In this document: positions 11,997 to 30,965 of the stretch, one piece after another
Position numbering within the stretch: position 1 is the stretch's first letter
How the letters are laid out: each line of letters opens with the position of its first letter
Assembly (NCBI GenBank): GCA_007571365.1
Contig: RKRN01000288.1
Span: forward strand, 1 to 38,296
Reading direction: 5' to 3'
Length of the DNA stretch: 38,296 nucleotides
Source: Candidatus Latescibacterota bacterium
GTDB lineage: Bacteria; Latescibacterota; UBA2968; UBA8231
Notes under the pieces: model-generated
Databases searched by the model: none
What the model was told of the DNA's origin: nothing
Seen by the model: the letters and a program-made list of their open reading frames with translations, nothing else
Made by a program: the position numbers and the translations under genes

Positions 11997-13223
11997 ATGC
12001 GCAGCATAAAATTCGTCAAAGGGAGCCTCTTGGAGCCCTTGAACAACGGCGATTTCGTGCGTCTGTGGCTGGCCAACGGCCTTTGGTGGCAGGCCATGTG
12101 GATGGAGATGCTGGCGCTGGGGTGGCTGGCTTTGGAGCTGACTAATTCTCCGTGGTGGGTGCAAGTTATCGGCTTTTACCGAGCCATCCCGCTGCTGATT
12201 ATGGGTTTGTTCGGCGCGGTGATTACCGATCGCTTTAAGCGGCGCTACATCGTTTGGACCTTGCAGTTGGTCAATGTGCTGGGGACGGGATTGTTGGCAC
12301 TCTTGCTCTTTGGGGGGTGGCTTGAACTGTGGCATTTGTCGGTGGTGTCGCTGGCGTTGGGAGCGTCTTGGGCGTTGGATTGGCCGACCCGGCGCAGTAT
12401 GGTGCCCGATCTCGTCGGCAAGGCCCGCACGGTCGATGCCATGGTGCTGGAGAATGTCATTCAGGGGTTTACGCGCATTGCTGGTCCTATCGCGGCCGGC
12501 TATGTCACGGCGGCCTATGGCAGCTTGGGGGCGCTGTTGGTGTTGGTCGGACTGGGCACTTTGTCGCTTTTCTTGTTAGCGGGTCTCAAGACAAACTCCA
12601 AAGCACCTAGTGCAGGCACGTGGACGGCGGGGTGGCAGATGTGGCAAGGGTCAGCCAGTATGCGGGCCTCGGCGCCGATATTCGGCGTTTTTCTCATCAC
12701 GATTTTTATGAACGTCTGGGTTTTTCCCTACATGAACCTGCTGCCGGTTTTCGCCCGCGACGTATTCGGCCGCGGCCCAGAAGCGATGGGGTGGTTGGGC
12801 GCGGCTAGTGGTGGCGGGGCGATTGTGGGCTTGGCTGTTGTCCAGCTAAGTCGCCGGAAGCTGAGCAATGAATGGCTCTTTGTCGCCGGCTCGTTGCTTG
12901 CGTGCATGGGCGTTGCCGCCTTTGCCTTGAGCGGGACCTTTGGCCTCGCTTTGCTGATGTTGTTTTGCTCGGGGTTGGGGCAGGCCGGCTTCAGCATTAT
13001 GCAGAGCAGCATCATCTTGGTCGAATCCTCAGACGAGATGCGGAGCCGGGCGATGAGCGCCTTGGTCGTGGCTATTGGCGTCGGCCCCTTTGGCCGCTTG
13101 CAGAGTGGGGCCATGGCCGAGGCTTGGGGCGCACAAGGCGCGGCGGGCATCATGGCAGTGCTGGCGGGGATAGCGACGGTGGGAACGGCGGTTTTGGTGC
13201 GGGGGTTTCTAGGGAAAAGATAA
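11997..13223 (+). CDS. MFS transporter (MFS_3/EntS-like exporter)
   Basis: This 408-aa protein is a 12-helix-type major facilitator of the MFS_3 group, which includes enterobactin exporter EntS and macrolide efflux proteins. The N-terminus has the family pattern LLEPLNNGDFVRLWLAN followed by a first helix. The loop between helices 2 and 3 carries GAVITDRFKRRYIV, the group's version of the MFS motif A. Long hydrophobic stretches repeat through both halves, with a more polar linker around residues 195-220. The start is ATG at 11997 after an AAGAGAG site. The substrate is unknown; small-molecule or siderophore export is typical of the family. It stands alone, between ftsH and a non-coding repeat element. 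Confidence 0.85.
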   Translation: MRSIKFVKGSLLEPLNNGDFVRLWLANGLWWQAMWMEMLALGWLALELTNSPWWVQVIGFYRAIPLLIMGLFGAVITDRFKRRYIVWTLQLVNVLGTGLLALLLFGGWLELWHLSVVSLALGASWALDWPTRRSMVPDLVGKARTVDAMVLENVIQGFTRIAGPIAAGYVTAAYGSLGALLVLVGLGTLSLFLLAGLKTNSKAPSAGTWTAGWQMWQGSASMRASAPIFGVFLITIFMNVWVFPYMNLLPVFARDVFGRGPEAMGWLGAASGGGAIVGLAVVQLSRRKLSNEWLFVAGSLLACMGVAAFALSGTFGLALLMLFCSGLGQAGFSIMQSSIILVESSDEMRSRAMSALVVAIGVGPFGRLQSGAMAEAWGAQGAAGIMAVLAGIATVGTAVLVRGFLGKR

Positions 13224-13293
13224 ATCCGCGCAGATTGCCAATTGCACGGTTTGTCTAGCATATCTACCTTGCAGATGCGTTGATCCAACCTCA

Positions 13294-13518
13294 TTAACTG
13301 ACGTTACGCAGCGAGAGCTGCCGGTTGGCAGTCGGTGCCGGGTAGGCTGGATCCCGCATACGCGGGAAGGACACATTTTCTTGGGTGCGCGGGCCTCTGG
13401 CCCGCACTGGATTCCCGCCCCGGGTCGGATCGCGGGGTGACGTTCTTGCGCGGCAAGGACGCCTTGGACCTGCAAGGATCCGACGATAACCAGCGACTGC
13501 ATACCATCAACTCATTAA
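13294..13518. repeat. MITE-like element A with imperfect terminal inverted repeats
   Basis: The left end TTAACTGACGTTACGCAG (13294-13311) is mirrored by the right end at 13497-13518 (CTGCATACCATCAACTCATTAA), with mismatches. The interior contains two hairpins: TCCCGC/GCGGGA around 13352-13367 and GCGGGCC-TCT-GGCCCGC at 13389-13405. A stretch beginning at that second hairpin and another just before the right end (cgacgataaccagcgactgc) also occur in element C. There is no open frame of note. It fills the gap between the MFS gene and the amino-acid dehydrogenase gene and ends about 5 bp before the latter's ribosome-binding site. Confidence 0.7.
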
Positions 13519-13536
13519 AGTAAAGGAGAGTGTCCA

Positions 13537-14832
13537 ATGTCCGAGTCTTTGTTTAGCGACGCCAGTCAACGGCTGGAGGAAGCCTTGGCGTACGCGTCCA
13601 TTTCCGACGACGCCATTGAGCGGCTCAAGTTGCCCAAGTCGAGTTTGAAAGTCTCCATCCCGGTGCGTCTGGACGACGGTACGTTGCGCATCTTTCCGGG
13701 CTACCGGGTGCGCTACGACGACACCCGCGGCCCGACCAAAGGCGGCATTCGCTACCACCAAGATGTGTCCATTGACGAGGTTCAGTCCCTGGCTTTTTGG
13801 ATGACTTTCAAATGCGCGGTGGCCAATTTGCCCTTTGGCGGCGGCAAAGGCGGCATCACGGTCAATCCCAAGGAACTATCCCCTTTTGAACTGGAACGAC
13901 TCAGCCGGGGCTACATCGAAGCCGTGGCCGACTTCATTGGCCCGGACGTAGACATTCCAGCGCCGGATGTCTATACCAACCAGATGATCATGGGTTGGAT
14001 GATGGATGAGTACAGCATTATCAAGCGGCAGATCACGCCCGCGGTTATCACGGGTAAACCCTTGACTATGGGCGGCAGTTTAGGGCGCGATACAGCGACC
14101 GCGATGGGTGCCTTTTTCACTATCGAGGCAACTTGGCCCAAGCTCGGCTCGAGTGGTGCGCCGGCCGACACGACGGTGGCCGTGCAGGGCTTTGGCAATG
14201 CCGGGGCCATCATCGCCGAATTGCTCTTTGATGCCGGATATAAGGTCGTGGCCGTAAGCGACTCCAAAGGAGGTATTTATCGGCATGAAGGACTCGACAT
14301 TCCCAGTGTGCGCCAGTTCAAGGATTCGACCCGTACCCTCAAGGCCGTGTACTGCGAGGGCACGGTGTGCAGCATCGTCGAGCACGACACCATCACCAAC
14401 GAGGAATTGCTCGCGCTCGACGTCGATATCCTAGCGCCAGCGGCGCTAGAAAATCAGATCACGGCGGCCAATGCCCGCGACATTAAGGCCAAGGCCGTGT
14501 ACGAACTGGCCAACGGTCCCACCACGCCCGATGCCGACCAGATCTTGCGCGAGCGGGGCGTGATCGTCTTTCCCGACATCTTGGTCAACGCCGGCGGCGT
14601 GACCGTGAGCTATTTCGAGTGGGTGCAGAATCGCCAGGGCCTATACTGGACGCTAGCAGAGGTAAACCGGCGGCTCAAGCAGATGATGGTTGAGGAGACC
14701 GAGCGCATTTGGGCTATTGCCCAAGAGCGGGGCATCGCACCGCGCACCGCCGCGTACGTCCACGCCTTAAACCGGATCGGCGACGCCGTTCAAGCCAAAG
14801 GCACCAAAGATTACTTCACCGATGGTCGATGA
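13537..14832 (+). CDS. Glu/Leu/Phe/Val-type amino-acid dehydrogenase, probably glutamate dehydrogenase
   Basis: It is predicted to deaminate glutamate (or form it from 2-oxoglutarate and ammonia) with NAD(P). The 431-aa length fits hexameric glutamate dehydrogenase. Substrate-site motifs are present: RGPTKGGIRYH, FKCAVANLPFGGGKGGI with the catalytic-site lysines, and PAPDVYTN with the catalytic Asp. The C-terminal nucleotide domain carries VAVQGFGNAGA. The motif TGKPLTMGGSLGRDTATA is typical of the glutamate branch. A strong AAGGAGAG site precedes the ATG. Its stop overlaps the start of an orphan tail-domain frame (ATGA). The upstream region is occupied by repeat element A, so any promoter must lie inside or before that element. 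Confidence 0.92.
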   Translation: MSESLFSDASQRLEEALAYASISDDAIERLKLPKSSLKVSIPVRLDDGTLRIFPGYRVRYDDTRGPTKGGIRYHQDVSIDEVQSLAFWMTFKCAVANLPFGGGKGGITVNPKELSPFELERLSRGYIEAVADFIGPDVDIPAPDVYTNQMIMGWMMDEYSIIKRQITPAVITGKPLTMGGSLGRDTATAMGAFFTIEATWPKLGSSGAPADTTVAVQGFGNAGAIIAELLFDAGYKVVAVSDSKGGIYRHEGLDIPSVRQFKDSTRTLKAVYCEGTVCSIVEHDTITNEELLALDVDILAPAALENQITAANARDIKAKAVYELANGPTTPDADQILRERGVIVFPDILVNAGGVTVSYFEWVQNRQGLYWTLAEVNRRLKQMMVEETERIWAIAQERGIAPRTAAYVHALNRIGDAVQAKGTKDYFTDGR

Positions 14833-18471: not shown

Positions 18472-19605
18472 CTACAAGGGGAGTAGGCGGTCGCGGTATT
18501 GCGCCAGGCGACTGGCGAGCATGGAGTCGAGCGCGGCGGCCGAATGGGCTAACCCCGCGCCAATGCCGCGCTGAGCTACGTGGATGAGAAGACGCACTAG
18601 CCCGTTGGCATCGTCGAGGTGGATGTACTCGGGGGCCAATTGCGCGCCAGGCCCGGCGTTGTGATAGTTGCCCAGCGGCAGGGCCACGGCGCCGGTGCGA
18701 TAAGCGGCCTGCATAAGTGGGGTGGCTTCGCAAGCACCGCTGTCCATCAGCTTGCGTTGGTAGCGGAAAGTAGGCTGCTGGGCGGCCAATTCGTCGGCTA
18801 GGGCCGCCATCCCGCCGCTGATGTCTGGGTCAAAAACCCACAGCCTATCGCCCACCCGCAAAATCGGCCCGGCGCCGAGCACCGCTCCAGCCGCCACGCT
18901 GGAGCACTCAATGTTGATATAGAGCGCGCGGCGCGGCAAGAACTTGGCCTCTAGCGCGGCGAGCATACCGACGAAACCCACCTCTTCAGCGCGCGTGAGC
19001 AAGACGCCGAGGCGGACCGCAGCTTGCCGGCGAGCCAAAAAATCCAAGACGCACAAAGCCACGGCCGCGCCGGCCAAATCGTCGATCGCCCGGCCGCTCA
19101 AGCGCCGACCCCGCACCCGCAAAGCCGGCAAATCCCACATCGCAAAGGTCCCCGGCCCTTGGGGGCAGTCGCCGGCTGTGGCCACTTCAACTAGGGGATA
19201 GCGCGTTGCTGCTTCCGCTGCTTCCACCGTTCGGACGATAGTCCCGCGGATTCCGCGCTGCGTAGCCGGGCCATGCCGGTCGAATAGCCGTACGCTAGTC
19301 GCCAGCGCCTTTTCCAGCTCGACGCCGCCGAGTATCTCGAATAGGGCGCGGCCTGAACCTTCGGCGGTTTTCCACACTAAGCCGGGGTGATCGAGGTGGG
19401 CCGTTAAGACGATGAATTCGTCGTCGTCGTGTTGGCCGCCGCCGTCGTAGAACAGCAAGCTGTTGCCACAGCGGTCGTGGCGCACTTGGATGAGCGGCCG
19501 GGCGGCTGCGAATGCGCGGGCGATGCCAAAGGCAAAATGTTCGTGGAAAGGGGCTGTGGGGGCGCGGATGAGCGGCCGGGCGATGTGGAGAAAGTCGAGT
19601 TCCAT
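18472..19605 (-). CDS. M42-family zinc aminopeptidase
   Basis: M42 (glutamyl aminopeptidase/TET-type) enzymes are cytosolic two-metal aminopeptidases forming large complexes. The 377-aa product shows the metal and catalytic residues in order: LTAHLDHPG with the first His, GRAIDDLAGA with the bridging Asp, TRAEEVGFVG with the catalytic Glu pair, INIECSS (Glu where Asp is more usual) and the final His in LPLGNYHN. The start is ATG at 19605. Neighbours do not suggest a specialised role. The 3' end is 10 bp from repeat element C, which separates it from the convergent SDR gene. Its promoter region is shared with the divergent envelope operon. Confidence 0.86.
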   Translation of the reverse strand: MELDFLHIARPLIRAPTAPFHEHFAFGIARAFAAARPLIQVRHDRCGNSLLFYDGGGQHDDDEFIVLTAHLDHPGLVWKTAEGSGRALFEILGGVELEKALATSVRLFDRHGPATQRGIRGTIVRTVEAAEAATRYPLVEVATAGDCPQGPGTFAMWDLPALRVRGRRLSGRAIDDLAGAAVALCVLDFLARRQAAVRLGVLLTRAEEVGFVGMLAALEAKFLPRRALYINIECSSVAAGAVLGAGPILRVGDRLWVFDPDISGGMAALADELAAQQPTFRYQRKLMDSGACEATPLMQAAYRTGAVALPLGNYHNAGPGAQLAPEYIHLDDANGLVRLLIHVAQRGIGAGLAHSAAALDSMLASRLAQYRDRLLPL

Positions 19606-19703: not shown

Positions 19704-21860
19704 TTGCTAAGACACTTGCCGACTCACTACCTAGACCACCTAGCCGGGCGCGATCAAGCCCTACTGGCCCCGCCCGGTACCCAGCAGCTAACCATGCGGG
19801 CGTTTTGGGTGGGAGCATTCCTCAGCTTTTTCCTCGCTGTCGGTGCTCCGTACGGCAACATGATCATCCGCGGCTCCTACATGGCCTTGGACTTCAGTAC
19901 GCCAGGGGCCATTTTTTTATTTCTCGTTCTCATTGGGCTGCTCAATGTGTTGTTCAAGGTCGCCGCTAGCCCGTCGGGCGCCGTGGTTTGGGCCTTGGTC
20001 GCGTGTTCGCTCTATGGCTTCTACTATGGTTGGATAGTTCCGCTCGATCTTTTTGCCCCCGGTTTTTTCTTTGCCACCTTCATCGTGGCCTCGTCTCTGC
20101 TCAACATGGTCTTGGTCGCTTGCGGGCGGAGTCTGGTCCTCAACCGGGCCGAGCTGATTGTCGTGTACGTCATGCTGTTGATCGTCTCGGCTCTTTGCAC
20201 TATGGGCCTGAGCGAGCAAATTCTGCCGATGATCACGGCGGTGTTTTACTTTGCCTCGCCGGAAAACAAGTGGCGGGAAATGCTCTTCCCCCATTTTTCC
20301 GCACGAGAAGTCCTAGTTGACGACGGGAGCGACAGCAAGACCTTTTACGAAGGGTTGGCACCCCAAGAGGCGATTCCCTACGCAGCCTGGGTAGAGCCTT
20401 TGTGCTGGTGGGCCGTCTTTCTCTTAGCGTTGTACGTGACCATGGTGTCGGTCGCGGTTATTATCCGCCGGCAGTGGATGGAGCGCGAGCGATTGCCCTA
20501 TCCGCTCACGCAGGTGGGCTTGGCGATGGTGCGGGGAGAGGAACGCGGGTCTAAGATCAATACCTTTTTTCGCCAACCGGCGATGTGGGCTGGTTTTATG
20601 GTGCCGATTTTTTTTGGCAGCTTGAAGGCGCTGCATCGCTACGACCCGGCTTTTCCGATCTTCGTCCTGACCAAATGGATACCCTTAGTGGGCAAGCAGA
20701 CTTTGCAAGTGACCGTCAGCTTCGCCATAGTCGGCTTTTCGTACTTCATCAATGCCAATATCGCGGCTGGAATCTGGTTCTTTCACCTGTTGGCCAAGTT
20801 TGAAAAGGAGTTCTTCGCGCTCGCTGGCGTGACGACCGAGCAGAAAGTTACCTTCGGCGTGGCCGACTTTCCCCTGATGGCCTACCAGGGGGTCGGTGCC
20901 TTGCTGGCGATGGTTGGGATTGGCTTGTGGGTGGGCCGGGAACACTTGGGCAAGGTGTGTAAAAAGGCCCTCGGCTTGGCGCCAGAGGTGGAGGATGGGG
21001 ATGAGATCATGTCGTATCGCGGGTCTTTTTTTGGCGCGGTAGGTGGGGTCTTGGTCATGTCGTGCTGGCTGTGGATCATGGGTACGCCGCTGTGGGTGGC
21101 GTTCGTTTTTGTCGTCGTGGCCTTGCTCGTTTTCCTCGGCATAACGCGCATCGTCGCCGAAGCCGGTCTAGCGGCTGTGCGAGCGCCGATGACGGCACCC
21201 GACTTGGTGATTTTGGGGTTGGGAACCGATTTGGTGACGCGGACCGGGGTATGGAACTTGTCGTTGGCCTATATGTGGGGCGCGGATGTGCGGGTGTTCG
21301 TCATGGCCACCTGTACCAACGCCCTCAAGCTCATTGAGGAGATGGAGCCGCGGCTGCGGCGGCTGGTGTTTTGGGCTATTATGCTTGCGCTCTTTATCGG
21401 TGCGCTCGGTGCGTTTTGGATGATTTTCCACATGGCCTATCAGCACGGCGGCGTGAACCTCAACGGTTGGTTTTTTAAGGGCGCACCCGAAACCGCATAT
21501 AACAACGCGCTCCGCAACCTAGAACCGACCGGCGTACATTGGCCGGGGCTGGGGTTTTTGTCCGGCGGTGCGCTCGCCATGGGGGCGATGATGTGGGCGC
21601 GGCAACGCCTGCCTTGGTGGCCGGTGCATCCCATTGGCTTTCCCATCGGGGCCAACGGCATGCTCAACTACGTGTGGTTTAGCGTGTTCTTGGCTTGGTT
21701 TATCAAGAAGCTGATCATGCGCTTCGGCGGAGTAGCGTTATATCGCCGCAGTCAGATGTTCTTTTTTGGCCTGATCTGCGGGCAGGTTTCGTGCAATGGA
21801 CTGTGGTTGATTATAGATTACTTCACCGGCAAAGTCGGTAACTCTATCTTTTGGGCATGA
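19704..21860 (+). CDS. DUF6785/DUF6784-type multi-spanning membrane protein (OPT-like)
   Basis: This 718-aa integral membrane protein has roughly a dozen or more hydrophobic segments and the family-type motif QWMERERLPYPLTQVGLAM after the first block of helices. I place it in the DUF6785/DUF6784 group of oligopeptide-transporter-like proteins; the function is unknown and transport is only suggested by the fold. The start chosen is TTG at 19704, with GGGG 8 nt upstream and a promoter just before it; ATG at 19794 (MRAFWVGAF) is the alternative and drops a polar 30-residue leader. Its TGA overlaps the ATG of the next gene (ATGA), giving translational coupling with the M28-FtsX fusion. A second, larger relative is two genes downstream, so the two may form a hetero-oligomer. 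Confidence 0.72.
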   Translation: MLRHLPTHYLDHLAGRDQALLAPPGTQQLTMRAFWVGAFLSFFLAVGAPYGNMIIRGSYMALDFSTPGAIFLFLVLIGLLNVLFKVAASPSGAVVWALVACSLYGFYYGWIVPLDLFAPGFFFATFIVASSLLNMVLVACGRSLVLNRAELIVVYVMLLIVSALCTMGLSEQILPMITAVFYFASPENKWREMLFPHFSAREVLVDDGSDSKTFYEGLAPQEAIPYAAWVEPLCWWAVFLLALYVTMVSVAVIIRRQWMERERLPYPLTQVGLAMVRGEERGSKINTFFRQPAMWAGFMVPIFFGSLKALHRYDPAFPIFVLTKWIPLVGKQTLQVTVSFAIVGFSYFINANIAAGIWFFHLLAKFEKEFFALAGVTTEQKVTFGVADFPLMAYQGVGALLAMVGIGLWVGREHLGKVCKKALGLAPEVEDGDEIMSYRGSFFGAVGGVLVMSCWLWIMGTPLWVAFVFVVVALLVFLGITRIVAEAGLAAVRAPMTAPDLVILGLGTDLVTRTGVWNLSLAYMWGADVRVFVMATCTNALKLIEEMEPRLRRLVFWAIMLALFIGALGAFWMIFHMAYQHGGVNLNGWFFKGAPETAYNNALRNLEPTGVHWPGLGFLSGGALAMGAMMWARQRLPWWPVHPIGFPIGANGMLNYVWFSVFLAWFIKKLIMRFGGVALYRRSQMFFFGLICGQVSCNGLWLIIDYFTGKVGNSIFWA

Positions 21861-24800
21861 AACACGCGGCTTACTACATCCTCTGCGTCCTCGCGCTGAC
21901 CGCCGATGGCGGTTGGGCCGGCGAGGACGGCGTGCGCCAAACCGTGGCGTATCTGTCGTCGCTCGGCTCTAGGGTCAGCGGCTATCCCGGGGCGGCCGCC
22001 GCGGCCGATTACGTCGAGCAGCGCCTGCGTGCGCTCGGCTTGCCCGAACTGACCCGCGAATCCTTTGCCATCACCGTGCCTATCGACCAAGGGGGCGAGT
22101 TGCTGCTCACCGACAGTGGGGAGCGCTATGCCCTCTATGGCCTGTGGCCCAACTTGGTTCGCACGCCGACGCTGCCCGAGTACCAAGGCGAGATGATCTA
22201 CGGCGGCGACGGCGAATGGGCCGATCTGGCGGGCTTTGCACTCGACGGCCAGATAGTACTGATGGAGTTCAACAGTTGGAGTCGGTGGTTGCAGGCCGCT
22301 TCGCTGGGCGCGCGCGCCATCGTCTTTATCGCGCCAGAGGCGACCACGACCGACCAAGCTACGGCTAAGTACTCCACGGCGCCGCTGGACATCCCGCGCT
22401 TTTGGATTGAAAGAGCCGCCGGCTTACAACTCAAGGAGCGGTTGCTCCAGCAGCCGGCTGCGGTCGTGCTCAAGGGGCGGATGGACTGGCAGCGCAAACA
22501 GGCTTGGAACATCTGGGGCCGGTTCCCGGGCACCGACCCGGCGCTGGCCGACGAGACCATTGTCATCGAAAGCTACTACGACGGCATGTCGGTGGTGCCG
22601 GCCTTGGCTCCGGCGGCCGAAGCGACCAGCGGCATTGCGGCGTTGCTGGCGCTGGCCGAGCACCTAGTGCGGCACCCGCCGCGCCGGCCGGTCGTGTTGG
22701 TGGCCACGGGCGCGCATTTCCAAGCGCAGCAGGGGATGGTCCACTTCCTCGAGCGCCACGCCCGCCTCCATCCCTACTACGCCGAGCGGATGGCCCAACC
22801 GCTCAAGCCCAAGCTCTTCATCTGCCTCGATCTGACCAGCCAGTCCGCCGGGTTGGGGATTTGGAACAATACCTTTAGCTACGACCTCAAGCGGTTTTTC
22901 GTGCCTTTTGGCCGGCGCTTTACGGCCTATGCCGAGGAGGAAGCGGCGCGGTTGGGCTTAGCGCAGGAACGGCCGCTGGCCAATGGGATCAGCCCGATTC
23001 GCGGTATGGACTGGTCGACCTTTGTGCCGGGCGGGGTCGTGGTCAGCGGGATGCAGGCCTTGTCGGCTGGGATTATCTCGCTGTCATTTGTAACCGTCAA
23101 CGACGCCCGCTACATCGTCGATACCCCGCTCGATACGCCCGAGCGGATGAACATCGACAATCTGTCGCGCCAAAGCCGCCTGCTCAACGCCATGATAGCG
23201 CGGGCCGTCGACGACGCAGACCTGTTTGCCGACTTGGAAGACTTTGGCCCGGTGCTCAAGGACAAATTGCGCTCCCTGCGGGTCAAGGTGCGGGCGTTCC
23301 CGCGCCGCAGCCAAGTGCCAGACCGCCCGATTGCCGACGCCATTGTCGTGGTGAATCCTTGGTTTAAGTCGCACAAAGGGCTCCGCCGGGCGCAGTACCA
23401 CCTCACGGATGGCCAAGGCGTTGCCGACATCGCTGGCTTGAAGACTGGCGGCTATCCGGTGGTGGCCTATCAAGTCGATCCAGCGACCGGGGCGATCGCG
23501 TTCGCGCCCGACCTGTCGGAAAGGGCGCAGAAGTTTAGCGGCGGAGTCGAGAATGGGTGGATGATCCCCAGCAGAATTCGCTGGAATACCAACGAAAAGA
23601 CCATCATCGTCTTTCCCAGTATTTCGCGGCCCTTCTACAGCATGATCGACTCGCGCTACCTGCGGTCGTTCAAGGAGATCAAAATCGTCGATCGCAGCGG
23701 CGTGGCCCCGCGGCAGTTTGGACTGGCGCGGGGATTTGACGAAGGCGAGGCCGTCGGCGTGGTGTTTGGCGCGCAGGACGCCGACGCGGACGACGGCATC
23801 AAGATGATCATTGACAACCGCTTACTCCTGCTCAACAGCGAAGGGGCCGAAGACGAGGCGCAGGCGCGCGGGCGCGGCTACGTGCTCAGTGAGGACTCGC
23901 TGATCCGCACCGGGATGCTGGCTGTCGAAGACATGTGGCAGCTCAACGAGGCGAGGCTGCGCACCTTGCGCGAGCACGCCATTGAAAATCAACGGCTAGC
24001 CCGGCTGCACCAGCGCGGCAAAGCCCTGATCGAGCAGGCGCGCCAAGCCGCAGAAGCCAAAAATTGGGAGCGCTATGTCGAGCACGTGCGGGCCGCGCTG
24101 GGCGTGACGTCGCGCGCGTACCCAGAAGTACTCCAGACGCTCAACGACGTCATCAGCGGCATGGTGTTTTTTCTCGCCTTGGTCATCCCGACGGCCTTCT
24201 TGGGCGAGCGGCTGCTGTTTGCGGCCGCTGATATTCGCCGGCAGCTAGCCGGGTTTGGCGGGTTGTTGCTGTTGATTTGGCTGGCCATCTCTCAGGTTCA
24301 TCCGGCCTTTGCCATTGCCCATCCGCTGGTGATCTTGCTGGCCTTTGCGATCATGGCGATGGCGGCGTTTGTCTTGGCGATGATCAGTGCCCGCTTCAAC
24401 CGCTATATGAGGGCCTATCAGGCGCGGGAAGCCCACGTCCACGAGACCGATATTAGCCGCGCCAGTGCCAGCTACGCGGCCTTTATGCTCGGCATTTCCA
24501 ACATGCGGCGGCGCAAGCTGCGCACCGGGCTGACCTTGCTGACTTTGGTTTTGCTCACCTTTACGGTGCTGTCTTTTACCTCGTTCAACACCCAGGTTCG
24601 CTACATGGCCTTTGCCATGGACCACGAAGGGACCTACGAGGGCGTGCTGATCCGCGACCGCAATTGGAATCAGCTAAACCGCCCCACGCTCGACTACGCC
24701 CGCTCCCACTTCGCGGCCGAGGGCGTGGTCGTGCCGCGCAACTGGTATGTCGCCTTTGACGACGAGCAGAAAAAGTACATCGAGGTCTTTGGCGATACCG

Positions 24801-26260
24801 CGGTGGTGCGGGCGACCGGGATGCTGGGGCTGATGCCGGAGGAAGTGCGCGTCACCGGCATCGATCAGGCGCTGGTGGCGGGGAGCTTCTTCGCGCGCGA
24901 GGACGAGGCATCGTGCCTGATGGCCGCGGGCATGGCCGAGGCCTTGGGCATTGGTCTGGCGGAGTTGGGCACGGCCACGGTGCGGGTGTTCGGCCGGAGT
25001 TTGGTGGTGCGGGGCGTGTTCGATCCCGATCTGTTTGAGGATATTCGCGACCTCGACGACGAGCCGCTGACGCCGGCAGACTTCCAGATGTCGAGTGCCC
25101 AAGCCCTCGGGCCGGTAGCCCAAGACGATATGAGTATCGCCGTAGATGAATCCGCGCTCGATATTCGTCCCTTCATCCACCTAGAGTCCGACAACGTGCT
25201 GGTCTTGCCCTATGGGACGCTGCGAGAGGCCGGGGGAATGCTGCGCTCGGTGGCGGTGCGGCTGGAGGACGGGGAGCGCGGACAGGAGTTGGTGGAGGAT
25301 TTTCTCCTGCGGCTGGCCATTACGCTCTTTGCCGGCCTGAAAGAGCCGGGCGCAGCCGCCATTAAGGTATTTTCCTACACCTCAATCGGGTTGACCAACG
25401 TCGAAGGCTTGGGGGCCTTGGTGATACCGATGTTCATCGCCGCGCTCATTGTGCTCAATGCGATGATGGGGGCCGTCTATGAGCGCTTCCGCGAGATCGG
25501 CATTTATTCATCGGTGGGCTTGGCGCCGCTGCACATTGCCTTGCTCTTTGTGGCTGAAGCCTGTGTCTATGCGATTATTGGCGTTACCTTGGGCTACATT
25601 CTCGGCCAGAGTTTGGGCAAAGTGCTCATTGCGCTGGACCTGCTACAGGGCATAAGCCTCAATTACTCGTCTATGGCGGCGATTGTCTCGTCGCTGATTG
25701 TGATGGCCGTGGTCTTGCTTTCGACGATATATCCGGCCAGGGTCGCCGCCCGCACGGCCGTGCCCGATACCGTGCGGCGCTGGACCCCGCCGGATCCGAG
25801 CGGGGACCGCTGGGAAATGGAATTCCCCTTTATGGTCAGCGAGGGCGAAGTGCGGGGCCTGTGTGGGTTTTTGGCCGGGTACTTCAGCGCCTATAGCGAG
25901 GAGTCCATCGGCGACTTCTACGCCGAGAAGGTCCAATTAGTCGAGGAAGCCGGCGAGCGCGGGCCGGAGTACGCGGTGCAGCTTTTGCTGTGGCTGGCGC
26001 CGTTCGACATGGGGGTGAGCCAGTTCATGCAGCTCGAATTTTTGCCCACCTCGGTCAAATCCGTCTATACCGTGGAGATTTTCATTCAGCGAATAAGCGG
26101 GCAGGACACCTTCTGGCAGCGGGTCAACTACCGATTTATCAATGGGTTGCGGAAAGAGTTCCTGCTCTGGCACACCCTCGCCGCCGAGTCGAAAGCCCAC
26201 CATCGCGCAGTCGCCGAAAAGATGTTGGCTGCGGCCGCCGAAACCGAGCACAGCGCATGA
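21857..26260 (+). CDS. M28-peptidase-like (probably inactive) / FtsX-permease fusion protein
   Basis: This 1467-aa envelope protein has a short signal or anchor (2-20), an M28-like aminopeptidase fold (about 25-450) with a PA-type insert near 105-170, a beta-rich and partly coiled middle (450-765), membrane helices (770-860), and an FtsX/MacB-type permease. The permease has its first helix after MRRRKLRTGL at 883, an extracytoplasmic part, three more helices at about 1190-1315 and a cytosolic tail to 1467. Most M28 zinc ligands are replaced: Tyr240 for His, Glu255 for the bridging Asp, Ala290-Gln291 for the Glu-Glu pair and Asp422 for the final His; Asp325 remains. It probably binds rather than cleaves peptides. 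No ABC ATPase for the permease half is nearby. ATGA overlaps join it to both DUF6785-type neighbours. Confidence 0.75.
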   Translation: MKHAAYYILCVLALTADGGWAGEDGVRQTVAYLSSLGSRVSGYPGAAAAADYVEQRLRALGLPELTRESFAITVPIDQGGELLLTDSGERYALYGLWPNLVRTPTLPEYQGEMIYGGDGEWADLAGFALDGQIVLMEFNSWSRWLQAASLGARAIVFIAPEATTTDQATAKYSTAPLDIPRFWIERAAGLQLKERLLQQPAAVVLKGRMDWQRKQAWNIWGRFPGTDPALADETIVIESYYDGMSVVPALAPAAEATSGIAALLALAEHLVRHPPRRPVVLVATGAHFQAQQGMVHFLERHARLHPYYAERMAQPLKPKLFICLDLTSQSAGLGIWNNTFSYDLKRFFVPFGRRFTAYAEEEAARLGLAQERPLANGISPIRGMDWSTFVPGGVVVSGMQALSAGIISLSFVTVNDARYIVDTPLDTPERMNIDNLSRQSRLLNAMIARAVDDADLFADLEDFGPVLKDKLRSLRVKVRAFPRRSQVPDRPIADAIVVVNPWFKSHKGLRRAQYHLTDGQGVADIAGLKTGGYPVVAYQVDPATGAIAFAPDLSERAQKFSGGVENGWMIPSRIRWNTNEKTIIVFPSISRPFYSMIDSRYLRSFKEIKIVDRSGVAPRQFGLARGFDEGEAVGVVFGAQDADADDGIKMIIDNRLLLLNSEGAEDEAQARGRGYVLSEDSLIRTGMLAVEDMWQLNEARLRTLREHAIENQRLARLHQRGKALIEQARQAAEAKNWERYVEHVRAALGVTSRAYPEVLQTLNDVISGMVFFLALVIPTAFLGERLLFAAADIRRQLAGFGGLLLLIWLAISQVHPAFAIAHPLVILLAFAIMAMAAFVLAMISARFNRYMRAYQAREAHVHETDISRASASYAAFMLGISNMRRRKLRTGLTLLTLVLLTFTVLSFTSFNTQVRYMAFAMDHEGTYEGVLIRDRNWNQLNRPTLDYARSHFAAEGVVVPRNWYVAFDDEQKKYIEVFGDTAVVRATGMLGLMPEEVRVTGIDQALVAGSFFAREDEASCLMAAGMAEALGIGLAELGTATVRVFGRSLVVRGVFDPDLFEDIRDLDDEPLTPADFQMSSAQALGPVAQDDMSIAVDESALDIRPFIHLESDNVLVLPYGTLREAGGMLRSVAVRLEDGERGQELVEDFLLRLAITLFAGLKEPGAAAIKVFSYTSIGLTNVEGLGALVIPMFIAALIVLNAMMGAVYERFREIGIYSSVGLAPLHIALLFVAEACVYAIIGVTLGYILGQSLGKVLIALDLLQGISLNYSSMAAIVSSLIVMAVVLLSTIYPARVAARTAVPDTVRRWTPPDPSGDRWEMEFPFMVSEGEVRGLCGFLAGYFSAYSEESIGDFYAEKVQLVEEAGERGPEYAVQLLLWLAPFDMGVSQFMQLEFLPTSVKSVYTVEIFIQRISGQDTFWQRVNYRFINGLRKEFLLWHTLAAESKAHHRAVAEKMLAAAAETEHSA

Positions 26261-29200
26261 ACGACAATAGCAAGAAAAGGCGTCAGGAAGCAAAAAGGCA
26301 GCGCCAGTGGGCCGAGGTCGAAGAGTACCGCGCCCTGCTCGAAGCGCCCAACCGCTTTGATGAAGGCTTCACCGTCCGCACCATTATCGGCGTGCTTTTT
26401 CTCTCGCTAATTATGACCCCCGGCGAGATGTTCCTCGGGCTATACACGGGGGGTGGCGTGGGCGCGGCCGCGCAATGGGTGACGGTGATTCTCTTTTTAG
26501 AAGTCGCCAAGCGCTCGTTTTCCTCGCTCAAGCGCCAAGAGATTTACCTGCTGGTGTACGTGGCCTCCGCCTTAATTGCCCGGGAGGAAGGCGCGTTTCT
26601 CGACTTGCTCTGGCGTCAGTATTTCGTGCGCTCAGCCGAAGCTGAGCAATTCGGCATCTCGCGCATTTTGCCCTGGTGGTGGGCGCCCTCGCCCGATTCG
26701 GAGGCCATTGCCGAGCGGACTTTTATCCACCGCGACTGGCTGGTGCCGATTCTGCTGTTGGTGGTCGGCACGATCATGGGCCGCATCGCTTGGTTTACTT
26801 CTGGCTACATGCTCTTCCGGCTCACTTCCGACCGCGAGCAATTGCCCTTTCCGACCGCGCCGATGTCGGCCTTGGCCGCCATGGCGCTGGCCGAGGACTC
26901 GGGGGCCGAGCAGGAGACGTGGAAGTGGCCGGTGTTTAGCATCGGCGCGGCTATCGGCGCGTCGTTCGGGGCGATCTATGTAGGGGTGCCGGTGGTCACC
27001 CAGCTCTGGGGTTCCAAAATAGAAATTCTGCCGATTCCCTTCTGGGATTTGACCCCTTACTTCGGCAACATCCTCCCGGCCACGCCGCTGGGGGTCGCCG
27101 TCCACTTGGGGCCGATATTCTCCGGGTTGCTCATGCCCTTCTGGTCGGTGGTGGGCTCCTTTTCCGGGGTGATGCTGCATACGGCAGTCAGCCCCTTGCT
27201 CTACGAATTGGGCTATCTGCCGCGTTGGGAAGTCGGCATGGACACCATCCGCACCCAAATAGCCACCGGGATCGACTTCTGGCGCGCCTTTTCCATTGGC
27301 ATCACCATCGCCGTGACCATCGTCAGCTTCTACCAACTCTTTAGCACCGGCCGCGAAAAGCGGGCCGAATTGCGCGAAAAGCTCCAGCTCCAGAAGGCCG
27401 ATCAGCCCGCGGTGTGCCAGCACTCGGACTGTCATCGCCCGTCCGAGGTGCGGGGATACTGCCTAAAGCATCTCGGCCGCGGCGATTTCAACTTGTGGAT
27501 CTGCGCGTCGCTGTTTTGCGTCGCCGCGATCTATCCCATCGTCTTGGCCAAGACCTTGTTTCCCACCTTGGTCAGCACGGGCCTGTTGGTGATTTTCGTG
27601 CTCATCGCCTTTGTCTATGCGCCCATCATGTCCTTTGTCAGCGCCCGGCTCGACGGCTTGGTCGGGCGGGAGATTTCGATCCCTTACGTCGATGAGGCCA
27701 TTCGCTTTATGACCGGCTTTCGCGGGGTCGAAATTTGGTTCGTGCCCTTTCCAGCCCGCAACTTCGGCGGGCATGCCGAGGGGTTTAGGGTCGTCGAGCT
27801 GACCGGGATGAAGTTTACCAGCCTGCTCAAGGCCGAGCTTTTTATGCTGCCTATTGTCTTGGTCGTGAGTATGATGTATTGGACCTTCCTCTGGCGCTTG
27901 GCTCCCATTCCCTCAGAGAGCTACCCGTACGCCCAACTCATGTGGCCGCTGCGGGCCTTTGACCAGGCACTCTACTTGTCCAGCACGATGTACAGCAAAA
28001 TGTGGCGCGCCGGGGAGGAGCTAGAAGGAGAGCTTGTGCCGCGCGGCCAAGCCGTGTGGAGCCCGAGCAATTTGCAGGACGGCCGTTGGTGGTACTGGCG
28101 GGTGCGATCCACCCGAGATTTAGGCGTCCCCGATCCGGTCAAGCGCGCCTATGGCCCTTGGTCGCAGACCGGATACTTCTACACGAGCTTCAAGGGTGGA
28201 AACGCGCCGCCGCTGCCGGAGGCTGCTGAGAGAATTGCCGCGGCCGCGAGTACTGCGTCGGATGGCCCCCAGCTTCTTTGGCCGCCCAACGGCCTAGCCC
28301 TGGCCACGCCGAATCCCAACTTCCGCGCGGCGGTCAATCTGGCCCCGGGCGATTCGCTCGACTTCTACTTTGAAGTGGATCGCCTGCCCAGCTTTGACGG
28401 CGAGTTTTTGCAGCGTTCTTCGGACCGGCCCTTGCTCTTTGAGGTCTTGTGGCGGGACATGCGCTTTACTGGCGACCGCAAGGACGACGATGGCGACCGC
28501 AATGTCGCAGCACTCGTCGCGGGCGTAGAGCCCGCCGGGCTGGGAGGCCAGCTCGGGCTGGCAGAAGGAGACCGTCTCCGCGCAGTAAACGGGGTTGAGC
28601 TCCGCGTACCCGAGTGGGACACCGAGCAAATCAACCGGTATTTTACTCAGGGCGCGGACTCGGTGTTTGCCGCTTGGGAGCGCGATGAGAAAACCATGCG
28701 CCGAGCCGCGGTACGCCGGCCGGGCGAAGTACTCGGGCTTGAGTTTGCGGCCGACACTTCATTTGTCGAAGGATGGACCGAATACGCTGCGGTGCGCGTC
28801 GCCACCGTAGCCGAAGAGGGGCTAGGCCACCGCTTGGGCTTGCAAGCCGACGACCACCTTATGACGATCAACGGCCAAAGTATTGACCAAGATACATGGC
28901 GCAGCGAGGAGGTCGTTGCCGCCTTTACGGCGGTCGTGGAGGAGACCGCGACCGCCGTAAAGGCCGAGTGGGAGCGGGATGGAGACCGCCGCGAGGGCTG
29001 GGTGGCCGACGCGTCATCGCTCCAGTTGGGTCTGACCTATCGGGCCGGGGCCGTCGAGGGCCTCGACGAAGAGTTGCTCAACAACCGCGACGACGACGGC
29101 GATGGCTTGATCGACGAAGATACGCACCACCCCCTCGACGGCGAGAAGTGGCCCATTATCCTCGGTGGTGCGGGGTTCGGCTTGGTGGCGTACTTTGCGC

Positions 29201-29457
29201 TGGCCTTTATGGGTATGCCGATTTTTCTCATCTGGGGATACGTCCAAAGCGTCAACGGCATTCCGCACTTTCTCATTCCGCAAATCATCGGTGCCCTGAT
29301 TGCCCGGCACTACTTTTGGAAGCGCTACGGCCGCCAGGAATGGCGGCGCTATGCCATGGTCTTGAGCGTGGGCTTCGGGGTTGGCATGTCGCTGATCGGC
29401 ATGTTCAGCGCGGCCTTGGCGATGATCAAAAAGGCCGTTTCTTCCTTGGCCTATTGA
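26257..29457 (+). CDS. DUF6785-type membrane protein with inserted tandem PDZ domains
   Basis: This 1066-aa protein is related to the 718-aa protein two genes upstream: it has similar N-terminal helix blocks and a similar C-terminal end (residues 966-1066), where an ARHYFWKRYG segment matches WFIKKLIMRFGG. Residues about 387-405 in a cytosolic loop form a Cys/His cluster (C-x4-C-x9-C-x2-H) like a small zinc finger. Between the last helix blocks there is an extra soluble region (about 620-960). It has a fibronectin-like beta segment, two PDZ-like domains (about 749-800 with EGDRLRAVNGVEL, and 843-905 with ADDHLMTINGQSI) and an acidic loop NNRDDDGDGLIDED (943-956) resembling a calcium-binding repeat. 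The start is ATG at 26257, overlapping the previous stop; a longer frame to 25990 lies inside the previous gene. Function is unknown; peptide or protein-terminus binding by the PDZ part is inferred. Confidence 0.72.
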   Translation: MNDNSKKRRQEAKRQRQWAEVEEYRALLEAPNRFDEGFTVRTIIGVLFLSLIMTPGEMFLGLYTGGGVGAAAQWVTVILFLEVAKRSFSSLKRQEIYLLVYVASALIAREEGAFLDLLWRQYFVRSAEAEQFGISRILPWWWAPSPDSEAIAERTFIHRDWLVPILLLVVGTIMGRIAWFTSGYMLFRLTSDREQLPFPTAPMSALAAMALAEDSGAEQETWKWPVFSIGAAIGASFGAIYVGVPVVTQLWGSKIEILPIPFWDLTPYFGNILPATPLGVAVHLGPIFSGLLMPFWSVVGSFSGVMLHTAVSPLLYELGYLPRWEVGMDTIRTQIATGIDFWRAFSIGITIAVTIVSFYQLFSTGREKRAELREKLQLQKADQPAVCQHSDCHRPSEVRGYCLKHLGRGDFNLWICASLFCVAAIYPIVLAKTLFPTLVSTGLLVIFVLIAFVYAPIMSFVSARLDGLVGREISIPYVDEAIRFMTGFRGVEIWFVPFPARNFGGHAEGFRVVELTGMKFTSLLKAELFMLPIVLVVSMMYWTFLWRLAPIPSESYPYAQLMWPLRAFDQALYLSSTMYSKMWRAGEELEGELVPRGQAVWSPSNLQDGRWWYWRVRSTRDLGVPDPVKRAYGPWSQTGYFYTSFKGGNAPPLPEAAERIAAAASTASDGPQLLWPPNGLALATPNPNFRAAVNLAPGDSLDFYFEVDRLPSFDGEFLQRSSDRPLLFEVLWRDMRFTGDRKDDDGDRNVAALVAGVEPAGLGGQLGLAEGDRLRAVNGVELRVPEWDTEQINRYFTQGADSVFAAWERDEKTMRRAAVRRPGEVLGLEFAADTSFVEGWTEYAAVRVATVAEEGLGHRLGLQADDHLMTINGQSIDQDTWRSEEVVAAFTAVVEETATAVKAEWERDGDRREGWVADASSLQLGLTYRAGAVEGLDEELLNNRDDDGDGLIDEDTHHPLDGEKWPIILGGAGFGLVAYFALAFMGMPIFLIWGYVQSVNGIPHFLIPQIIGALIARHYFWKRYGRQEWRRYAMVLSVGFGVGMSLIGMFSAALAMIKKAVSSLAY

Positions 29458-29498: not shown

Positions 29499-29822
29499 AT
29501 GGACTTACTTGGGCGCATATTCCGCGTCGTGCGGGCGTACGCGGCGGCCCCTGAGCCACGCGATGCCTACGAGCCTTGGCCGCCGCCGGTGTCGCCGCCG
29601 GCGCCGGCCGAAGATCCAGTCCTCGCCGGGTATTACGCCAATCTGGAGCTGCCCTATGGAGCCAATTTGGCGGCGGTAAAGGCCGCGTGGAAGCGTCTGA
29701 TGAAGCAGTACCACCCCGACCGCCACGCCCGCGATCCGGCCAAGCGCGAAGTAGCCAACGCCCTGTGTGCCCAGTTGACACACGCCTATAAAGAGCTGGA
29801 AAAGTCGCTGACGACCCATTAA
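29499..29822 (+). CDS. Small J-domain (DnaJ-like) protein
   Basis: The 107-aa protein begins at ATG 29499 with a short amphipathic stretch (MDLLGRIFRVVRAYA), a Pro-rich linker, and a C-terminal J domain (about 45-105). The invariant HPD is present at residues 72-74 in KQYHPDRHA, and helices YYANLELPYGANLAAVKAAWKRL and the closing AHAYKELEKSL-like segment fit the fold. J domains recruit DnaK/Hsp70 and stimulate its ATPase. There is no Gly/Phe or zinc region, so this is a class III-type co-chaperone, possibly tethered near the membrane. It lies 41 bp after the PDZ-bearing membrane protein and 26 bp before the YjfI/YbjN-like gene. A longer in-frame extension overlaps the previous gene and is not credible. 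Confidence 0.82.
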   Translation: MDLLGRIFRVVRAYAAAPEPRDAYEPWPPPVSPPAPAEDPVLAGYYANLELPYGANLAAVKAAWKRLMKQYHPDRHARDPAKREVANALCAQLTHAYKELEKSLTTH

Positions 29823-30254: not shown

Positions 30255-30965
30255 ATGGCAGGTATATTTCAACGTTTGTTTAAAACCGGGCAGGCTGAAG
30301 CCCACTCCTTAGTGGATAAGCTCGAAGACCCCATCAAGATGAGCGAGCAAGCGATCCGCGACTTAAAAAAGGACTTGCAGGAAAGCCTCAAGGCCCTCGC
30401 CGAGGTCAAGGCTATTTCCATAAGGCTCAGCCGCGAGTCCGAAGACCACCGGCGGCGCGCCGAAGACTACGAGCGCAAGGCCATGCTGCTGTTGCAAAAG
30501 GCCGAATCCGGCCAGATGGAGGAAGCCGAAGCCGACCGCCTGGCGCGCGAGTCGCTGACCCGCGTTGAGGAGGCCCAGAGTAGGCATGCAGAAGCCTCCC
30601 AACAGGCTCAAGCCCAACAGGCGATGGCCAACAAGCTACAGAGCAATGTCAACGATCTGAAGTCGAAAATCGCCTCGTACGAAAACGATCTGGTGACCCT
30701 CAAGGCGCGTACCAAAACCGCCAACGCCACCCGCAAAATCAACCAGCACTTGGCCAATATCGACTCCAAGGGCACCACAGCCCTGCTCGAACGGATGAAA
30801 GAAAAGGCCGAAGAGCAGGAAGCACTCGCCGAGGCTTACGGCGATATGGGGGATGCAGCGACCGCTATTGATGACGAGATCGACAAGGCCCTCGCCGACA
30901 GCAAGGGCGCCAAAGTCGATGACTCGCTGGCCCAGCTTAAGGCCAGAATGAAGATGACCCAATAA
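30255..30965 (+). CDS. pspA: PspA/IM30-family membrane-stress protein
   Basis: PspA proteins are ESCRT-III-like helical proteins that assemble on damaged inner membrane and maintain the proton gradient. The 236-aa product is almost wholly coiled coil, starts with the amphipathic helix MAGIFQRLFKTG used for membrane binding, and then has the family pattern DPIKMSEQAIRDLKKDLQESL. The extra C-terminal helix region (ATAIDDEIDKALADSKGAK) is nearer to the YjfJ paralogue group than to classical E. coli PspA, in keeping with the YjfI-like neighbour. GGAGG precedes the ATG. No pspF, pspB or pspC is present, so regulation is likely from the operon promoter at 19649-19677 instead of the enteric sigma54 system. 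Confidence 0.9.
   Translation: MAGIFQRLFKTGQAEAHSLVDKLEDPIKMSEQAIRDLKKDLQESLKALAEVKAISIRLSRESEDHRRRAEDYERKAMLLLQKAESGQMEEAEADRLARESLTRVEEAQSRHAEASQQAQAQQAMANKLQSNVNDLKSKIASYENDLVTLKARTKTANATRKINQHLANIDSKGTTALLERMKEKAEEQEALAEAYGDMGDAATAIDDEIDKALADSKGAKVDDSLAQLKARMKMTQ

Follow-up and report, generated by a model that had tools for sequence, protein, structure and literature searches.

Does the M28-like domain that is fused to an FtsX permease at this locus still act as a peptidase and, if it does not, what might it do on the outside of a membrane? We examined a 38,296-nucleotide stretch of DNA from a Candidatus Latescibacterota bacterium (contig RKRN01000288.1 of assembly GCA_007571365.1; this whole stretch is hereafter referred to as the window). 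The permease gene at 21857–26260 is real; its reading frame starts with an ATG at 21857, stops at 26260 and encodes a protein of 1467 amino acids, P0001.

Predicted fusion of a PA/M28 domain with an FtsX core

When P0001 was searched alone, FtsX (PF02687; residues 1188–1300, 46 bits against a cut-off of 25.5, E = 6.6e-12) was the sole Pfam domain recognised, with no match to Pfam M28, and the PDB returned a weak match to 2ek8 (E = 0.008). With a profile built from 33 members of the family, the matches were 2ek8 (E = 9e-16), YwaD (5e-13) and nicalin (2.5e-7); Pfam M28 was recognised in 25 of these 33 members and PA in 12. An AlphaFold model of residues 24–764 had a mean pLDDT of 77.8 and a pTM of 0.81, and Foldseek, given this model, found 2ek8 (E = 5.8e-23) as well as PaAP, the transferrin receptor, BSAP (TM-score of 0.65 on the target) and GCPII. 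A sub-profile restricted to the main M28 part placed at the top of its PDB matches 2anp, which we take to be the E151H mutant of the Aeromonas/Vibrio enzyme; nicalin (E = 2.4e-8) and the Vibrio enzyme scored alike, and nicastrin matched weakly. These searches, together with the model, identify the outer part of the protein as a predicted M28 aminopeptidase fold into which a PA domain is inserted.

Hydropathy analysis of P0001 indicated seven membrane segments, at approximately residues 766–784, 800–820, 825–843, 892–910, 1182–1200, 1227–1245 and 1273–1291. The last four are predicted to be the usual FtsX/MacB core, laid out as a helix, a periplasmic region and three helices, with the coupling loop between core helices 2 and 3. 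Because the protein also has a likely signal peptide, the predicted topology places its large N-terminal part outside and the loop of residues 1203–1228 inside. The features of the protein are as follows.

21857–26260, + strand: PA/M28-FtsX fusion protein P0001, 1467 aa (ORF calls; FtsX Pfam match; M28 profile and fold)
21857–21919, + strand: putative signal peptide, residues 1–21, MKHAAYYILCVLALTADGGWA (as read directly from the sequence, without a predictor)
21926–22186, + strand: predicted first part of the M28 fold, residues 24–110 (2ek8 and YwaD match the profile from its position 5 on; AF2 model)
22187–22471, + strand: predicted PA domain inserted in the M28 fold, about residues 111–205, with approximate boundaries (Pfam PA in 12 of 33 members; Foldseek matches to PA-containing M28 proteins)
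22472–23221, + strand: predicted main M28 part with the former active site, residues 206–455 (profile, Pfam, Foldseek)
23222–23836, + strand: predicted beta-rich region, residues 456–660 (AF2 secondary structure)
23837–24151, + strand: predicted helical stalk running to the membrane, residues 661–765 (AF2 secondary structure)
24152–24385, + strand: three predicted extra transmembrane helices, about residues 766–843 (hydropathy)
24530–24586, + strand: predicted FtsX core helix 1, residues 892–910, with NMRRRKLRTG just before it (hydropathy; top conservation among segments)
24587–25396, + strand: predicted periplasmic region of the FtsX core, about residues 911–1180 (topology from hydropathy)
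25418–25756, + strand: FtsX domain including the last three helices, residues 1188–1300 (Pfam FtsX, 46 bits; matches to MacB, LolC and YtrF)
25463–25540, + strand: predicted cytosolic coupling loop, conserved, residues 1203–1228, MMGAVYERFREIGIYSSVGLAPLHIA (conservation; placed as the MacB coupling helix, PMC5985334)
25757–26257, + strand: predicted cytosolic C-terminal region, residues 1301–1467 (predicted topology)

The first-pass annotation of this DNA had described an M28-like domain fused to an FtsX permease. Both domains stood up to these analyses; the PA insertion, and the two overlapping genes that flank the permease gene (see below), had been missed.

Replacement of the catalytic and metal-binding residues

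We established the register of the former active site from two independent HMMER alignments and from an alignment by MAFFT that included two canonical M28 enzymes encoded in the same genome. HMMER aligned the segment 'saHfqglrG' to 'GAEENGLIG' of 2ek8 and to 'AAHEVGLRG' of 2anp. The Glu-Glu pair of M28 enzymes accordingly falls at His287-Phe288, in agreement with MAFFT, and not at Ala290-Gln291, where it had been placed at first. The remaining assignments of that annotation, with Tyr240, Glu255 and Asp422 as replaced ligands and Asp325 as a retained one, were in the right register by both methods; that of Asp422 is anchored on the P-x-D just after it. The positions concerned are listed below.

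22574–22576, + strand: Tyr240, in place of a metal-ligand His; Tyr, Phe or His across the family (alignments, tally)
22619–22621, + strand: Glu255, in place of the metal-bridging Asp; nearly always Glu, otherwise Asp, Ala, Ser or Asn in single members (tally)
22715–22720, + strand: His287-Phe288, in place of the catalytic Glu and a ligand Glu; His invariant, the next residue Phe or His (alignments, tally)
22829–22831, + strand: Asp325, the M28 metal-ligand Asp, retained and invariant (alignment, tally)
23108–23134, + strand: Arg418, invariant; Asp422, in place of a ligand His; Pro424 and Asp426, invariant (alignment, tally)

Only Asp325 is kept out of the five metal ligands of M28 enzymes (His, Asp, Glu, Asp, His), and the catalytic Glu is represented by His287. 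With four of the five ligands and the catalytic Glu replaced, the aligned sequences support the earlier suggestion that the domain is a pseudopeptidase. In the family sequences we saw no second invariant set of His, Asp and Glu residues that might form an alternative complete two-metal site. Asp242 and Asp426 are further invariant acidic residues beside Asp325; ordinary M28 sequences, too, have counterparts of these two residues accompanying the ligands. In the members with Glu255, a mononuclear metal site composed of Glu255, His287 and Asp325 could in principle form. At other loci, this genome also codes for canonical M28 enzymes whose residues are intact.

Conservation of the altered site across the family

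To describe the variation at these positions, we tallied the 56 rows within the phylum that cover the former site, a few of which represent a single gene in overlapping copies. Position 240 was Tyr in 51 rows, His in 4 and Phe in 1; position 255 was Glu in 54, Asp in 1 and Ala in 1; position 288 was Phe in 39 and His in 17; and position 422 was Asp in 49, Asn in 6 and Gly in 1. His287, Asp242, Asp325, Arg418, Pro424 and Asp426 were invariant in all 56 rows and in all of 8 further rows, six of which come from four genomes outside the phylum. These outside members (L116–L120 and L133, in G101, G175, G188 and G138) share these invariant residues; two of them have Ser or Asn at position 255. Position 255 is Ala in L065, Ser in L117 and Asn in L120, with the rest of the pattern kept.

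Of the 64 genomes of the phylum, 59 contain full-length relatives; among 130 other genomes, the search found them in 5, which include the four just named. The closed genome of one relative (G049) has seven family members. In a tree made by a quick method and with an arbitrary root, the members from outside the phylum occupied deep branches, which suggests that, within the sampled family, the enzyme residues were already lost in the common ancestor. The rows with His at position 240 were scattered over separate parts of the tree, so that this His need not be a leftover of the enzyme state. Comparison with close orthologues gave dN/dS values of 0.10–0.19 for the M28 and PA domains; those of the membrane part were lower.

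The same substitutions occur in every family member examined, which points to more than chance, and the loss proposed for this one protein thus turned out to be clade-wide; a search for homologues with intact ligands found none in the same family. Since the enzyme set occurs in no member examined, the residues named above are invariant and dN/dS is 0.1–0.2, the sequences identify this as a family of old, selected pseudo-peptidases.

A three-gene module with OPT-like membrane proteins

The permease gene overlaps its upstream and downstream neighbours by 4 bp each, at ATGA junctions.

19704–21860, + strand: DUF6785/DUF6784 polytopic membrane protein, with a putative start (Pfam, E = 5e-107 and 8e-29)
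26257–29457, + strand: second polytopic membrane protein, here called DUFdown, related to DUF6785 and, distantly, to OPT (hhalign, OPT profile, Pfam)

We counted the neighbours of the permease genes ourselves at 25 loci with flanks (L058–L060, L063–L076 and L114–L121), some of which are cut by contig ends. At least one of DUF6785 and DUFdown lay beside the permease or was fused to it in 23 of the 25, and both did in 11. Fusions in one frame were found at L065, where the permease and a DUF6785 domain make up a protein of 2129 aa, and at L062. Even though DUF6785 genes are numerous (up to 58 candidates in a genome, of which 19 were scored), one would be expected to adjoin a permease gene by chance at a few percent of loci. 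Given this low expectation and the 23 loci observed, the gene order argues for a strong association of the permease with DUF6785 and DUFdown as a module.

The two partner families appear to be homologous to each other. An hhalign comparison of DUFdown with DUF6785 gave 91.5% and E = 9e-7, rising to 96% and E = 2e-9 with more sequences. No Pfam family covers the membrane part of DUFdown. Against Pfam OPT (PF03169), the DUFdown protein of L117 scored 25.9 bits (cut-off 25.8) and that of L116 gave E = 3.7e-4; the copy in the window scored 27.5 bits in a genome search, yet had no hmmscan hit. Comparison of DUFdown with OPT by hhalign gave collinear pieces with E = 6e-4 and 4e-3, and that of DUF6785 with OPT was without significance. 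Profile searches of the PDB with both partner families gave no matches, and the AlphaFold model of the DUF6785 partner had a pLDDT of 50 and a pTM of 0.44. These similarities tentatively suggest an OPT-transporter ancestry of the partners, to which DUF6785 itself would be linked only indirectly.

Several other features of these genes and their surroundings were observed. DUF6785 is hugely expanded in the phylum (G000 and relatives), far exceeding the permease-linked copies. The DUFdown protein in the window, of 1066 aa, contains a pair of PDZ domains as well as acidic repeats of the DDDGD type (KDDDGDRN, RDDDGDGLIDED), which most paralogues lack. At L114, where G049 has a deeply diverging paralogue of the module, an extra polytopic gene (12126–13583; 486 aa frame) lies directly upstream. 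In the window, the module is followed by the genes for a small J-domain protein (29499–29822; DnaJ Pfam, E = 1.4e-7) and a PspA/IM30 protein (30255–30965), both syntenic in the orthologous locus L063; this synteny hints at envelope stress for the copy in the window. A divergent M42-type peptidase gene (18472–19605, − strand), which points away from the module, is syntenic in L063 as well.

Proposed role of the permease

We propose that P0001 is a non-hydrolytic receptor or gatekeeper subunit of a transporter-like complex, a reading that we consider, taken as a whole, to have about an even chance of being correct. Its parts differ in strength: the PA/M28 domain is very probably non-hydrolytic, the permease probably acts together with the OPT-like partners, and a peptide-type ligand is a tentative suggestion, to which we give somewhat less than an even chance. 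A helical stalk would hold the PA/M28 ectodomain beyond the cytoplasmic membrane; of the seven transmembrane helices beneath it, the final four would make up the FtsX (type VII ABC) core. At the former active site, the usual two metal ions could no longer be held, and hydrolysis would be gone; the cleft, rebuilt around the invariant His287, Asp325 and Arg418, may have become a binding or docking surface. In a putative complex with the two co-encoded OPT-like membrane proteins, the permease would present a ligand to these partners or gate access to them. A peptide or peptide-like molecule is the most likely ligand in view of the M28 ancestry of the domain and the OPT ancestry of one partner. 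The FtsX core may couple the state of the ligand across the membrane by means of the conserved cytosolic loop, which would make contact with an ATPase that acts in trans or with a different cytosolic partner.

The cytosolic side bears on the first alternative, which differs from this proposal in the source of energy. An ABC ATPase encoded elsewhere might dock on the coupling loop and drive mechanotransmission, as in MacB, LolCDE and FtsEX, with the pseudo-peptidase as a moving outer arm. The coupling loop (YERxREIGIYSSVGLAPxHI), which corresponds in position to the coupling helix of MacB (PMC5985334), is among the most conserved stretches of the protein, and this argues for a retained cytosolic contact. 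No ABC ATPase was found among the neighbouring genes scanned, just as the first-pass annotation had stated. A few LolD-like ATPases of the closed genomes G049 and G038 lack a nearby FtsX gene (for example, G049:3066789 and G038:3256471), three strong ones in G038 included; such orphans make supply of an ATPase in trans possible. In G049, however, no strong LolD-like ATPase occurs within 100 kb of any of the seven family members, whereas the ordinary FtsX permeases of that genome mostly have one within a few kb, and there is no sign as to which ATPase would serve the family. Given the conservation of the loop, an ATPase or other cytosolic partner may act in trans; a fully ATP-driven machine appears somewhat unlikely. 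Adjacent ABC ATPases at L071 and L072, a few kb off, were considered and rejected as partners; in L072 the ATPase adjoins a separate small FtsX gene.

The cleft itself bears on the second alternative, namely that the M28 domain is purely a scaffold or gatekeeper that holds the complex together or sterically screens substrates, its old cleft having no small ligand. Nicastrin and nicalin, pseudo-M28 ectodomains with polytopic partners, would be the models: nicalin pairs with the seven-helix TMEM147 and nicastrin with APH-1 (PMC7505659). Nicalin was among the best profile matches to the main M28 part, with nicastrin a weak one, but the strict invariance of His287, Asp325, Arg418 and Asp426 in the old cleft suggests that the cleft still has a role of its own, and we regard a pure scaffold as unlikely.

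We also considered whether the domain might be a remodelled, active hydrolase, either with one metal on Glu255, His287 and Asp325 (perhaps also Asp422) or with His287 as a general base, that cleaves an unusual amide or ester. His287 is invariant where the catalytic Glu should be, and 2anp, the top match of the sub-profile search, has His at the same position. The title of Bzymek et al. 2005, as cited in PMC4320195, describes the E151H mutant of the Aeromonas/Vibrio M28 enzyme as functional, and a type VII permease with a hydrolase-type periplasmic partner exists in YbbAP-TesA (PMC12646458). The E151H mutant, however, kept all of its metal ligands, whereas four of five are replaced here; moreover, position 255 is Ala, Ser or Asn in L065, L117 and L120, and position 240 varies among Tyr, Phe and His. 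For these reasons we consider continued hydrolysis to be quite unlikely. That P0001 is a degenerating gene copy, as the lost enzyme residues alone might suggest, can be dismissed with near certainty: dN/dS is low in all domains, full-length frames occur in many genomes and the pattern is identical across phyla, in line with the initial view that this is not random decay.

Comparison with known systems

Our search of the open literature found no description of an M28-FtsX fusion, of DUF6785 or of a bacterial relative of nicalin. The module gives DUF6785 a physical context, and the soluble domains should allow direct study of a dead peptidase site.

In fold, PA insertion and profile similarity, the ectodomain resembles the PA-containing M28 aminopeptidases (2ek8 of Aneurinibacillus, YwaD/BSAP of B. 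subtilis and PaAP of P. aeruginosa); it differs from them in the replaced residues and in the fused permease. The membrane part shares with the type VII ABC permeases MacB, LolC/E, FtsX, YtrF and YbbP the FtsX domain, the coupling loop and the arrangement of one helix, a periplasmic region and three helices, and differs in its PA/M28 ectodomain, its three extra helices and the absence of an adjacent ATPase. ADOP orphan permeases (TIGR03434) form large paralogous FtsX families without an adjacent ATPase and have two FtsX domains in about 800 aa. The present family is likewise one of paralogous FtsX permeases without an adjacent ATPase, but has one FtsX Pfam domain together with an M28 domain. 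As a separate observation, ADOP-like permeases with a double FtsX domain, about 35 in number and roughly 800 aa long, are encoded in G038 (for example, at 462496–519358), mostly without a nearby ATPase. Together with nicastrin/APH-1 and nicalin/TMEM147, YbbAP-TesA is the closest analogue in terms of function. In YbbAP-TesA, unlike here, the hydrolase TesA is active, separate and not related to M28, and the ATPase YbbA is present. The downstream partner is a candidate distant relative of the OPT transporters of oligopeptides and metal chelates (PF03169), a similarity that lies at the limit of detection.

The likeness to nicalin of the multipass translocon and nicastrin of gamma-secretase consists in a membrane-borne pseudo-M28 domain with a polytopic partner; here, in contrast, an OPT-like partner stands in the place of TMEM147 or APH-1, and the protein has seven predicted helices with an FtsX core. 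By analogy, the module might be a prokaryotic counterpart of nicastrin/APH-1 and nicalin/TMEM147, in which the pseudo-M28 domain would receive or screen substrates for the OPT-like pair while the FtsX core provides the coupling, although we consider so close a correspondence very unlikely. On that reading, the module would represent a novel type of transporter, coupled to a receptor, of which duplication has given each genome a number of versions side by side. Pseudo-M28 domains are parts of two central eukaryotic membrane machines, and a bacterial family would appear to make similar use of one, here combined with an orphan type VII permease and OPT-like proteins, phylum-wide and beyond, in several copies per genome.
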